A stretch of DNA of 64,000 nt from Sphingobacteriales bacterium. Lineage in GTDB: Bacteria; Bacteroidota; Bacteroidia; Sphingobacteriales; Sphingobacteriaceae. This document shows, piece by piece, positions 41,867 through 48,634 of this stretch. The position numbers were made by a program, and so were the translations under genes. The notes under the pieces were generated by a model, which saw nothing but the letters and a program-made list of their open reading frames with translations, had not been told where the DNA came from and made no database searches. The DNA lies in the NCBI GenBank assembly GCA_028288165.1, contig JAQBOG010000024.1, positions 62,001 to 126,000 of the forward strand, in the 5' to 3' direction. Numbering within the stretch: position 1 is the stretch's first letter; the number at the start of each line of letters is the position of its first letter.

Positions 41867-42176
41867 ATTCGTGCTTATCCAAACGAACTTTAATCAGATA
41901 TTATCAAGATAACACCTCGTCGAAAAAAAAACTTGAGGCTTGGTTCAAAGAGGTTGAAGATAGTGATTGGGAAAAGCCTGGCGATGTTATTAAAGATTAT
42001 CCTTTGCAGATGTTATTAGAGGCAAAAGGTTTGTTTTTAATATTAAAGGAAATGATTTCAGACTCATTGCAGATATTGAGTTTAGAATCAAAGTAGTCTT
42101 TATTGTTTGGATTGGAGCACATGCCAGTTATGATAAAATAGATGTGAAGGAGGTTAGCTATGTTAAAAATAATTAA
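41867..42176 (+). pseudogene. HigB-like toxin, frameshifted
   Basis: The plus strand encodes a HigB-type mRNA interferase in two frames. The first part reads SKRTLIRYYQDNTSSKKKL, then EAWFKEVEDSDWEKPGDVIK and DYP. One missing T near 42003-42006 then shifts the frame. The second part reads RGKRFVFNIKGNDFRLIADI, then WIGAHASYDKIDVKEV, to a stop at 42174-42176. At the 5' end the start appears lost (ATT) with a further likely one-base loss near 41875. It overlaps the higA start by 17 bases, the order usual for higBA. The toxin should be inactive. Confidence 0.82.
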
Positions 42177-42516
42177 AACAGAAAGTGAGTATGATGATGC
42201 TTTGGCACAGGCATATTTATTAATGCAAAAAGACGATTTATCTGATTCAGAGTCAGATGAATTTGAACTGTTGACTCTTTTGATAGAACATTACGAAAAG
42301 GAACATTATCCAATTGCGCCACCTAGCCCTATTGATGCAATCAAATTCAGATTGGAACAATTAGGGAAGCCGGAATCAGAGCTTTCCAAAATTTTAGGAG
42401 CGAGAAGCAGACAATCTGAAATATTAAGCGGAAAACGAAAATTAAGTTTGAGCATGATCCGGAAATTACATGAAGTTTTGGGAATTCCTGCTATTAGCTT
42501 GATAGGGGAATATTGA
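42160..42516 (+). CDS. higA: HigA-type antitoxin
   Basis: This 118-residue protein resembles HigA antitoxins of Bacteroidota. An acidic N-terminus is followed by a C-terminal helix-turn-helix (SKILGARSRQSEILSGKRKL with LSLSMIRKLHEVLGIPAISL). The antitoxin binds HigB and represses the operon promoter. It is intact although the toxin upstream is broken, so it may be kept as an orphan regulator or be a recent leftover. GGAGG lies just before the start (GAAGGAGGTTAGCTATG). Confidence 0.88.
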   Translation: MLKIIKTESEYDDALAQAYLLMQKDDLSDSESDEFELLTLLIEHYEKEHYPIAPPSPIDAIKFRLEQLGKPESELSKILGARSRQSEILSGKRKLSLSMIRKLHEVLGIPAISLIGEY

Positions 42517-46280: not shown

Positions 46281-46586
46281 ATGAGCCAAAGAATCAGAAT
46301 TAAATTGAAATCTTACGATTACAACTTAGTAGATAAATCTGCTGAGAAAATCGTTAAAACTGTAAAACCTACAGGTGCAGTGGTAAGTGGACCAATTCCT
46401 TTGCCTACAGAAAAGAAAATTTTTACTGTACTTCGTTCTCCACACGTAAACAAGAAAGCTCGTGAGCAATTCCAATTATGTGCCTACAAACGTTTGTTAG
46501 ATATTTATAGCTCAAACTCAAAAACAGTTGATGCTTTAATGAAACTTGAGTTACCAAGTGGAGTTGAAGTTGAAATTAAAGTTTAG
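46281..46586 (+). CDS. rpsJ: 30S ribosomal protein S10
   Basis: This 101-residue protein is S10. [36 protein letters not shown] and [14 protein letters not shown] are conserved. S10 is in the small-subunit head and also acts as NusE in antitermination. It closes the str operon here, since a terminator follows at 46609, and it is separated from rplC by two other genes. Confidence 0.98.
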
Positions 46587-46608
46587 TTATTCGATTTTCC
46601 AAAAATTG

Positions 46609-46637
46609 AGGGCTGCCATTTATGGTGGCCTTTGTTG
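46609..46637 (+). terminator. Terminator of the str operon
   Basis: GGCTGCCA and TGGTGGCC form an 8-bp stem with two G-U pairs around TTTA, followed by TTTGTTGTT. It starts 23 bases after rpsJ. The T run is interrupted, so strength is moderate. Confidence 0.65.
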
Positions 46638-46755: not shown

Positions 46756-46767
46756 TATCTTAGCAAA

Positions 46768-48027
46768 ATGAATATAGGTATCATTGGTCTGGGTGATATG
46801 GGCCGCTTATACGCTAAAGCTTTCGCTAAAGCGGGATATATAGTTTTTGGTTGTGACTTACCTCAACGACGTGAGCAACTTGAAGAAGAGCTTTCTCCTT
46901 TAGGCATTAAAGTTCTAGGCGATGGGAAAGAGGTTTCCAGGCAATGTGATATTATATTTTATTCTGTGGAGGCTGAAAAAATATCTGAGGTGGTTCAATT
47001 GTATGGCCCGTCAACTAAGTACGGTGCAATAGTAGCCGGACAAACATCAGTTAAGCATCCAGAAATTGAAGCTTTTGAGAAATACCTTCCAACTGATATT
47101 AATATTGTAACCTGTCATTCTTTACATGGGCCGGGCTTCGATACGGTTGGCCAAAAATTAATTGTTATCCCTCATAGAACAACTAAGGAAGCATATCAGA
47201 GAATGACTGATGTACTTACATCCTTAGGTTCAGAAATAGATGAAATTGCCGATTACCACGAACATGATAAGATCGTTGCAGATACACAGGCCGTAACTCA
47301 CGTTGGTTTTGAAAGTATGGGCACAGCCTGGAAAGAAGCTGGATTTTTCCCATGGGAAAATGCTTCGTATGTTGGAGGGATAGACAACGTCAAAATATTA
47401 ACAACGCTTCGGATATTTAGCTATAAATCGCACATATATAGTGGCTTGGCAATATTAAACCCCTATGCAAGGCACCAAGTTAAACGATATGCACAGTCTG
47501 AGTCTGATCTTTTTAAGTTAATGATCAAAGAGGAGGAAGCTACATTTCGTGAACGACTGTATAAAGCTCGCGACTTTGTTTTTCATGAAAGTCGGGTTCC
47601 TCTTATGTTAGATGATAAGATAATGAAAGAGTTTTCTCTTTCCGGTCAGCCTGGAAAGCGCAAACCTAACTCACATTTAAGTTTATTAAGTATGGTAGAT
47701 GCCTGGCATCATTTAGGAGTAAACCCGTATGATAACTTAATTTGTCAAACACCACCCTTCAGGCTTCGATTAGGTATTGCAGAATATTTATTTAAAAACG
47801 AAGAACTTCTGGAAGAGTCGATTCAAACTGCTCTTTATGATAAAAGTATTCGGAATGATGATCTTGAATTTCATTCAGCGGTTCGTGAATGGTCTTCCAT
47901 TATTTTTTATGGTGATCTTCAAGGATATAAACAACACTTTGATCAGGTTAAAAATTTCTTCGGAGACAGATTGGTACAAGGAAGGGAACAAAGTGTCGAA
48001 TTAATACGCCGACTTCAGATTGAGTAA
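46768..48027 (+). CDS. Prephenate dehydrogenase, fungal TYR1-like
   Basis: This 419-residue protein resembles the yeast TYR1 (prephenate dehydrogenase, NADP) more than bacterial TyrA. It has an N-terminal Rossmann domain (GIIGLGDMGRLYAKAF), then DIIFYSVEAEKISEVV, TSVKHPEIEAFEKYLP, TCHSLHGPGF, ADTQAVTHVGFESMGTAW, YVGGIDNVKILTTLRIFS, PNSHLSLLSMVDAWHHLGV and DDLEFHSAVREWSSI along the whole length, as I recall from the fungal enzymes. The reaction makes 4-hydroxyphenylpyruvate, the tyrosine precursor. There is no ACT or chorismate mutase domain. It sits between rpsJ and rplC, with no aromatic pathway gene near. Confidence 0.82.
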   Translation: MNIGIIGLGDMGRLYAKAFAKAGYIVFGCDLPQRREQLEEELSPLGIKVLGDGKEVSRQCDIIFYSVEAEKISEVVQLYGPSTKYGAIVAGQTSVKHPEIEAFEKYLPTDINIVTCHSLHGPGFDTVGQKLIVIPHRTTKEAYQRMTDVLTSLGSEIDEIADYHEHDKIVADTQAVTHVGFESMGTAWKEAGFFPWENASYVGGIDNVKILTTLRIFSYKSHIYSGLAILNPYARHQVKRYAQSESDLFKLMIKEEEATFRERLYKARDFVFHESRVPLMLDDKIMKEFSLSGQPGKRKPNSHLSLLSMVDAWHHLGVNPYDNLICQTPPFRLRLGIAEYLFKNEELLEESIQTALYDKSIRNDDLEFHSAVREWSSIIFYGDLQGYKQHFDQVKNFFGDRLVQGREQSVELIRRLQIE

Positions 48028-48040
48028 GCCTATCCTAAAA

Positions 48041-48634
48041 TTAGCGGTTATTTAGTAACTCCTCTAGTCTGTTTCTTTCTGTTTGAAGTTCACGGGAAAG
48101 CTTTTTCTCTTTTTCATTTGATTTTAATTTATGAGTCTGATACTCTTTAGACAGATCTTCATATAAGCCAATCCTATATTTAGCTTCTCGTTTTGCACTT
48201 ACAGAAAGATAGGTTGTTATTCCTAGGCAGATTGCTAAGAAACCTAAAATGCCTAGAATCAAATTCGTTTTATCTTCTGGAATGCTTTCCTTTTGAACAA
48301 CTTGAGCGGTACCATTCCTTATAACAAGTAAACTGTCATTTGCTGTTTTTAAGTCGTTTTTCAGATTGGTATTTTCCTTGTTAAGGTCTTCTACTTGTAT
48401 TTTAAATTTATCTAGTTGAGTCTGCTGCGTTTTCAGGCTGTCAATTATTTTTTTCCAATATGGTACAGCTTTATAAGCTTTAACTGGCTCCGCTGGTTGT
48501 GAAATGCTTTTTGAAGGTAAAGCAATTGATGATTTTGCGTTAGCAGCTTTCTTTACGCTATCGTTAACTCCCTTTTGAGCCATGGCAGAAATACAAGTTG
48601 TAATAATTATAACAATAAAAAGGAAGCTTTTCAT
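48041..48634 (-). CDS. Hypothetical secreted/membrane coiled-coil protein
   Basis: This 197-residue protein has a signal peptide (SFLFIVIIITTCISAMAQ), a coiled-coil region (about 70-115, for example KFKIQVEDLNKENTNLKNDL), one membrane segment (about 125-145, NLILGILGFLAICLGITTYL) and a second charged coiled coil at the C-terminus. It is similar in layout to small envelope or cell-division accessory proteins, but I recognise no family. It lies on the opposite strand inside the split ribosomal cluster. Confidence 0.72.
   Translation of the reverse strand: MKSFLFIVIIITTCISAMAQKGVNDSVKKAANAKSSIALPSKSISQPAEPVKAYKAVPYWKKIIDSLKTQQTQLDKFKIQVEDLNKENTNLKNDLKTANDSLLVIRNGTAQVVQKESIPEDKTNLILGILGFLAICLGITTYLSVSAKREAKYRIGLYEDLSKEYQTHKLKSNEKEKKLSRELQTERNRLEELLNNR

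Follow-up and report, generated by a model that had tools for sequence, protein, structure and literature searches.

How does a gene for tyrosine synthesis, whose product resembles the Tyr1 enzyme of yeast along its whole length, come to lie between two ribosomal protein genes in a member of the Sphingobacteriaceae, and what has become of the usual bacterial enzyme in that family? The locus belongs to a stretch of 64,000 nucleotides, which is called the window when the whole of the analysed DNA is meant. A first-pass annotation had read from it a protein of 419 residues, of the fungal TYR1 type of prephenate dehydrogenase, encoded between rpsJ and rplC. Both the frame, which starts with ATG and holds every sequence block quoted for it, and its position between the ribosomal genes were confirmed. 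The locus is arranged as follows.

46281..46586, plus strand: rpsJ (S10), the upstream neighbour, gene name read from the sequence
46607..46634, plus strand: terminator-like stem-loop of 12 pairs after rpsJ
46768..48027, plus strand: TYR1-type TyrA gene with ATG start, predicted prephenate dehydrogenase of 419 residues
48041..48634, minus strand: frame of 197 residues, convergent with the TYR1-type gene, apparently (judged by eye) with a signal at the N-terminus and a membrane segment
48984..49601, plus strand: rplC (L3), the downstream neighbour, gene name read from the sequence

The open reading frame is well past chance, with at least 80 related loci that are 75-87% identical (the best 80 of 127 confirmed genome-contig loci). 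The GC content (0.386) and GC3 (0.288) of the gene lie between the extremes of ten other genes measured in the window. Residues 1-284 of the protein form the TyrA core, and the remainder is a C-terminal extension. For the alignment, the sequence of E. coli K-12 TyrA was taken from its database record, and conservation was read from 105 bacterial TYR1-type rows, 104 of them distinct. The segments and residues concerned are given below.

46786..46803, plus strand: NAD(P)-binding glycine motif GLGDMG, residues 7-12, aligned with G106/G108/G111 of E. coli TyrA, with Pfam Rossmann-family matches
47116..47118, plus strand: H117, aligned with H197 of E. coli TyrA, a His in each of the 105 bacterial TYR1-type rows
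47299..47301, plus strand: H178, aligned with H257 of E. coli TyrA, His in 105 of 105 rows
47410..47412, plus strand: R215, aligned with R294 of E. coli TyrA, Arg in 105 of 105 rows
47422..47424, plus strand: Y219, equivalent to N222 of soybean PDH1, a site of substrate preference, Tyr in all 105 bacterial rows
47620..48024, plus strand: C-terminal extension (residues 285-419), lacking in E. coli TyrA and in four classical TyrA proteins of the family, modelled as helices only

Of the E. coli residues, H197 is taken here to be catalytic and R294 to be substrate-binding. The AlphaFold2 model of the protein, with 18 aligned family members as input, has a mean pLDDT of 84.8 and a pTM of 0.83, and it builds residues 283-419 from helices with zero strands. 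An ACT domain (beta-alpha-beta-beta-alpha-beta) was not found at the C-terminus, where the model has no strands, and no ACT family is among the Pfam matches. The best Foldseek matches in the PDB, with 20-22% identity and a TM by target of 0.72-0.77, are prephenate dehydrogenases of soybean. Soybean PDH1 (5t9e, 5whx) is the best PDB match by sequence as well as by structure, but it is about 20% identical and is without the extension (a 271-residue chain).

The claim that the protein departs from usual bacterial TyrA was borne out by the profile scores. Pfam PDH_N gives 25.9 bits by hmmscan against a cut-off of 26.5, and 28.3 bits, above the cut-off, for the same gene in the DNA-level genome search; the F420_oxidored and NAD_binding_2 families are above their cut-offs. 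Of 29 NCBIfam matches, 25 are listed, and every TyrA model among these stays below its own cut-off. The best NCBIfam score is that of NF006411, the PRK08655-type TyrA (93.3 bits, E 1.4e-26, residues 5-284), which is far under its cut-off of 464 and ends before the C-terminal extension. NF006307, which describes the classical Bacteroidota TyrA, scores 23.7 bits against a cut-off of 295, and the same model gives 355.2 and 359.2 bits on two classical TyrA proteins from related genomes. This points to a TyrA clade that goes unrecognised at the cut-offs of the listed NCBIfam TyrA models. In pairwise comparison, E. coli TyrA is 20% identical over 260 residues; three of four classical TyrA proteins of related genomes are 20-21% identical over stretches of 123-291 residues, and the fourth yields a 12-residue match only. 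The classical Bacteroidota enzyme (NF006307 / PRK08507 type, about 280 residues) shares the alignable core, the same His/His/Arg and, judging from the mutual exclusion described below, probably the place in metabolism, but it is about 20% identical where aligned and has no C-terminal extension. Likewise, E. coli TyrA, a chorismate mutase-prephenate dehydrogenase, shares the core with H197/H257/R294 and a non-acidic specificity residue, but it carries the fused chorismate mutase and is without the extension.

For the fungal side of the comparison, a sequence of 452 residues was used that is presumed, not drawn from a database record, to be that of S. cerevisiae Tyr1. BLASTP aligns the two proteins with 202 of 423 residues identical (48%, E 9e-141), extension included, and in the MAFFT alignment 142 of 283 core residues and 59 of 135 extension residues are identical. 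They are colinear over their full length and have the same catalytic residues and the same C-terminal extension. They differ in the host, which is here a bacterium, in Tyr219 against Asn in yeast, and in the termini, as the bacterial protein is 13 residues shorter at the N-terminus and has a shorter C-terminal tail. The bacterial TYR1-type rows are 44-49% identical to the presumed yeast sequence, and the most distant pair among them is 58% identical. In a 21-row tree, the presumed yeast row and the bacterial TYR1-type rows fall into one clade with a support of 100/99, within which this single fungal row has no supported position; a long-branch warning attaches to yeast, E. coli and Ilyobacter. 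Of the 22 TYR1-type loci chosen, 14 entered the tree and the others lay outside the set of distinct sequences, and frames from two weak-match loci (G136, G426) were kept out. Since a presumed sequence underlies both the first-pass annotation and the follow-up, the yeast match is a strong lead and not a database result. The TYR1 identity put forward in that annotation is supported by the 48% full-length match, against about 20% with E. coli and classical TyrA, and by the clade; the yeast match itself is not independent of the earlier one.

No fungal TyrA appears by molecule name among the matches listed in the PDB sequence searches, and a literature search with peptides of the presumed yeast Tyr1 found no paper. 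In the accessible parts of a published TyrA tree, plant enzymes form clade I and fungal ones clade II, and the fungal TyrA shares its group with certain enzymes of archaea, gamma-proteobacteria and chloroflexi (PMC5681985). Yeast TyrA is elsewhere described as a cohesive cluster, again in the accessible part of the source (PMC1173090). The accessible parts of these two papers make no mention of the TYR1 type in Bacteroidota (PMC5681985; PMC1173090), and no report of fungal-type TyrA in these bacteria is among the matches listed in the literature searches, as far as the abstracts and excerpts seen extend.

In tyrosine synthesis, the TYR1-type TyrA would convert prephenate to 4-hydroxyphenylpyruvate by NAD(P)-dependent oxidative decarboxylation, presumably taking prephenate rather than arogenate as the substrate. 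This preference is linked to the position held by Y219, which was equated with soybean N222 by anchoring an alignment without gaps on the Leu/Ile-Tyr pair that follows (HMMER places the gaps of this stretch differently); the soybean position was located from PDB chains, one of which has D for N. The same position is Q298 in E. coli TyrA and N234 in the presumed yeast Tyr1. According to the accessible part of the published work, arogenate activity is associated with an acidic residue at position 222, and Gln or Asn stands there in nearly every enzyme of clade II, a group considered prephenate-specific (PMC5681985). Tyr219 is non-acidic but departs from the clade II pattern of Asn or Gln, which is not a strict rule. 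The substrate is likely prephenate, but less certainly so because the residue lies outside this series. Tyrosine would thus be added to the residues (acidic, Asn, Gln) known at a position linked to prephenate or arogenate preference.

The fate of the usual enzyme is seen in the distribution of the two types. The family (f1 in the genome set, Sphingobacteriaceae by record titles and taxonomy) was sampled with 241 genomes, and the TYR1 type was found at E <= 1e-15 in 137 of these, belonging to 12 of 25 genera. Classical TyrA was found in 77 (PDH_N at 97 bits or more, the next score being 34), both types together in none, and neither type in 27. Two genera (g14, g42) contain both kinds, in different species. 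The TYR1-type and classical enzymes are mutually exclusive in Sphingobacteriaceae, and these counts are therefore strong evidence of functional replacement. Whether a second tyrA sits in the source genome, a point raised at the outset, was also answered: PF02153 finds this gene alone in that genome (68.6% complete), and a second TyrA was rejected on this ground and on the absence of both types together from all 241 genomes. Prephenate dehydratase is present in 223 of the 241 family genomes, namely in 133 of 137 with the TYR1 type, 76 of 77 with the classical type and 14 of 27 with neither. The source genome, at its 68.6% completeness, is one of four TYR1-type genomes without a detected prephenate dehydratase.

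The 27 family genomes that have neither TyrA (e.g., G005, G015, G090, G515) are a separate observation. A Biopterin_H gene (phenylalanine hydroxylase family) occurs in 12 of the 14 neither-type genomes that keep prephenate dehydratase, and a phenylalanine route to tyrosine is possible in them. However, the route is not specific to these genomes, because Biopterin_H genes are also present in 9 of 14 TYR1-type and 7 of 12 classical genomes tested.

The profile searches covered Bacteroidota only. In a phylum sample, 11 of 395 genomes match at 1e-15, of which nine are full length and all from Sphingobacteriaceae; the other two, from other families, are partial matches of the N-terminal 175-185 residues (1e-16 and 1e-18) and are not counted as TYR1-type. 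One of the two partial-match genomes (G136, the other being G426) also has a strong PDH_N match. In a class sample, 10 of 360 genomes match at 1e-30, all from Sphingobacteriaceae. These two samples overlap, with the first few candidates per genome scored, and no full-length TYR1-type copy was found in them outside the family. PDH_N at E <= 1e-15 matches 195 of 296 phylum genomes, a limit that is strict because only 9 of 14 control genomes reach it, and the PDH_N type of TyrA is the more common state in the phylum at this strict limit. Among 60 related genomes, 26 matched the TYR1 type, 23 in full length (the source genome included) and three weakly, at the N-terminus, near 1e-4. A genome-contig scan, which favours close relatives of the gene, gave 127 loci, and the titles of the best 80 name Sphingobacteriaceae or its genera in 71 cases, 'Bacteroidetes bacterium' in seven, 'Sphingobacteriales' in one and Flavihumibacter in one. 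The closest relative among the matches listed (87%) is the last of these, in record NZ_JAAFZB010000091.1, titled Flavihumibacter soli R14; the record name may be wrong, because its coordinates agree with a genome (G013) placed in the genus of the source organism. A phage or plasmid gene was considered and rejected, as phage records gave no match, 72,556 plasmid records gave no TYR1-type copy and eight partial matches at 23-29% identity, and none of 53 pattern matches in viral contigs is a relative.

The genomes that keep the old enzyme show what may have been displaced along with it. Four classical loci were read from the seven regions retrieved, and in three of these tyrA sits after an aminotransferase, the fourth having none. 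The aminotransferase is 65-69% identical among the three loci, and the one tested belongs to Pfam Aminotran_1_2. In 19 genomes without classical TyrA (14 TYR1-type, five with neither), its best matches are at most 28% identical. Because no close aminotransferase is found in these 19 genomes, the pair may have been lost jointly where it was present.

The S10-L3 junction is usually compact in bacteria, and the first-pass annotation had considered a gene insertion at this place to be rare. The family contradicts this. In a set of 37 rows that hold rpsJ, the TYR1-type gene and rplC (the window and several genomes present more than once), the gene lies inside the interval in all 37 and on the rpsJ strand in 36, and the interval measures 2.4 to 11.5 kb. 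The two ribosomal genes lie within 1.5 kb of each other in three of 22 genomes examined, all three among the 13 with classical TyrA. The rpsJ-rplC interval is therefore a commonly opened junction in Sphingobacteriaceae. Nor is the ribosomal-cluster location special to the gene, because among the best 80 of 127 contig loci 32 show both rpsJ and rplC, 16 show one and 32 show neither (some owing to contig ends). For example, in one Daejeonella genome the TYR1-type gene stands between a DeoR-type regulator and a frame of 1,389 residues. The minus-strand frame of 197 residues (48041-48634) has no Pfam or NCBIfam match at the limits used; minus-strand matches to it, 26-33% identical, lie upstream of the TYR1-type gene in related loci, mostly of Mucilaginibacter. 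Elsewhere in the window, at 42160-42516 on the plus strand, a protein of 118 residues gives a helix-turn-helix match of 22.8 bits against a cut-off of 23 and looks like a HigA-type antitoxin by eye. The sole same-strand frame of at least 35 residues just upstream of it has 46 residues and overlaps the neighbouring gene.

Distances between TYR1-type proteins follow those between ribosomal L3 proteins in the 37 rows (Mantel r 0.75, reached by 0 of 999 permutations). Judging from this correlation, the copies close to rplC, at any rate, seem to have passed mostly vertically through the family. A recent insertion or an assembly error was rejected: close relatives of the gene occur throughout the family, its distances track those of L3, and its composition is like that of its neighbours.

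The gene would also be transcribed from a promoter of its own and not within the S10 operon, and two elements bear on this.

46756..46763, plus strand: TATCTTAG, a promoter -7-like element that ends 4 bases before the TYR1-type start codon
48875..48905, plus strand: TTTG-N19-TATCTTTG before rplC, a fit to the promoter consensus of Bacteroidota

The consensus behind both elements is the one presumed for Bacteroidota. TAnnTTWG occurs within 60 bases of the start in 77 of 101 distinct upstream stretches, against 8.7 expected in base-shuffled stretches, and in 58 of the 101, that of the window included, exactly 4 bases separate it from the start codon; the counts overstate independence, because the stretches are related. 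The perfect TAnnTTTG is present in only eight of the 101, none of which has TTTG 18-22 bases before it. The fixed 4-base distance of the TATCTTAG-type element suggests a nearly leaderless transcript. Since TTTG-N19-TATCTTTG precedes it, rplC need not rely on read-through.

As for the origin, it is probable, taking the parts of the claim jointly and going by sequence and genome comparison, that the TyrA of this organism is of the TYR1 type, that it replaced the classical enzyme and that an exchange between kingdoms brought this about. The gene would long ago have passed between a lineage of the fungal type and an ancestral member of the Sphingobacteriaceae, and it would since have been inherited mainly vertically. 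The first-pass annotation had left the choice between a TyrA type older in bacteria than assumed and one that moved between kingdoms. The second fits better, because full-length copies are restricted to one family (in the overlapping 395 and 360 genomes) and the PDH_N-type enzyme is commoner in the phylum; the first is retained among the rivals. Transfer from fungus to bacterium is the favoured direction, at a confidence that taken alone comes close to even. The fuller course of events is tentative and stays somewhat short of even: a fungal TYR1 may have entered an ancestral member of the Sphingobacteriaceae and displaced the native TyrA, with the adjoining aminotransferase where present, in about half of the sampled genera, may now serve the route from prephenate to tyrosine, and may have had its specificity retuned by the lineage-specific Tyr219.

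The same evidence has to be read against other explanations. An ordinary bacterial TyrA with a superficial yeast resemblance would agree with the TyrA-like matches in Pfam and NCBIfam, with PDH_N over its cut-off in the genome search and with catalytic residues that are those of TyrA generally. It is hardly credible and was rejected, as 48% identity to the presumed yeast sequence over the full length stands against about 20% to classical TyrA, and the 135-residue extension is common to the presumed yeast Tyr1 and the bacterial protein. That the protein is a TyrA homologue which prefers arogenate or another cyclohexadienyl compound is improbable, less drastically so: Tyr219 is invariant in 105 of 105 rows where the presumed yeast enzyme has Asn and that of E. 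coli has Gln. Yet the residue is not acidic, as those marking arogenate enzymes are in the accessible part of the source (PMC5681985), and, whichever substrate is used, the mutual exclusion with classical TyrA speaks for a role in tyrosine synthesis.

The remaining alternatives concern the path of the gene. A TYR1 type that arose in bacteria and was acquired by a fungal lineage would suit the depth of the bacterial members, which differ down to 58% identity beside the 44-49% to the presumed yeast sequence, and a tree that gives no supported placement of yeast outside the bacterial rows. This reverse direction is unlikely, though to be taken seriously, as full-length copies in Bacteroidota occur in one family only (overlapping 395 and 360 genomes) and PDH_N-type TyrA, seen in 195 of 296 genomes at E <= 1e-15 (reached by only 9 of 14 controls), is commoner in the phylum. 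The type could also be an old bacterial subfamily that is present in other phyla and reached Sphingobacteriaceae and fungi separately, with no direct step between fungus and bacterium. Another bacterial phylum might be the source, as the profile search covered Bacteroidota, the contig scan favours close relatives, and its titles are those of the best 80 of 127 loci. Against such a course, which is judged rather doubtful, are the 71 of these 80 titled Sphingobacteriaceae or its genera, though the scan has the bias just named, and the lack of any TYR1-type copy in the 72,556 plasmid records.

The exchange between fungi and bacteria, with entry into the family as the favoured direction, bears on both partners. 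To our knowledge, transfers from a eukaryote to a bacterium that replace a core biosynthetic enzyme have seldom been documented. The replacement is sharp in the family (137, 77 and 0 of 241 genomes with the TYR1 type, the classical type and both) and extends over 12 of 25 genera, and related genomes keep the old enzyme for direct comparison. If the fungus was the donor, an essential biosynthetic enzyme of a bacterium would here have been replaced by a eukaryotic one; if the bacterium was, fungi would owe their tyrosine synthesis to bacteria. Tyrosine synthesis in many Sphingobacteriaceae apparently relies on a TYR1-type enzyme as in yeast, in place of the common bacterial TyrA; this suggests that fungi and bacteria at one time exchanged a gene of core metabolism.
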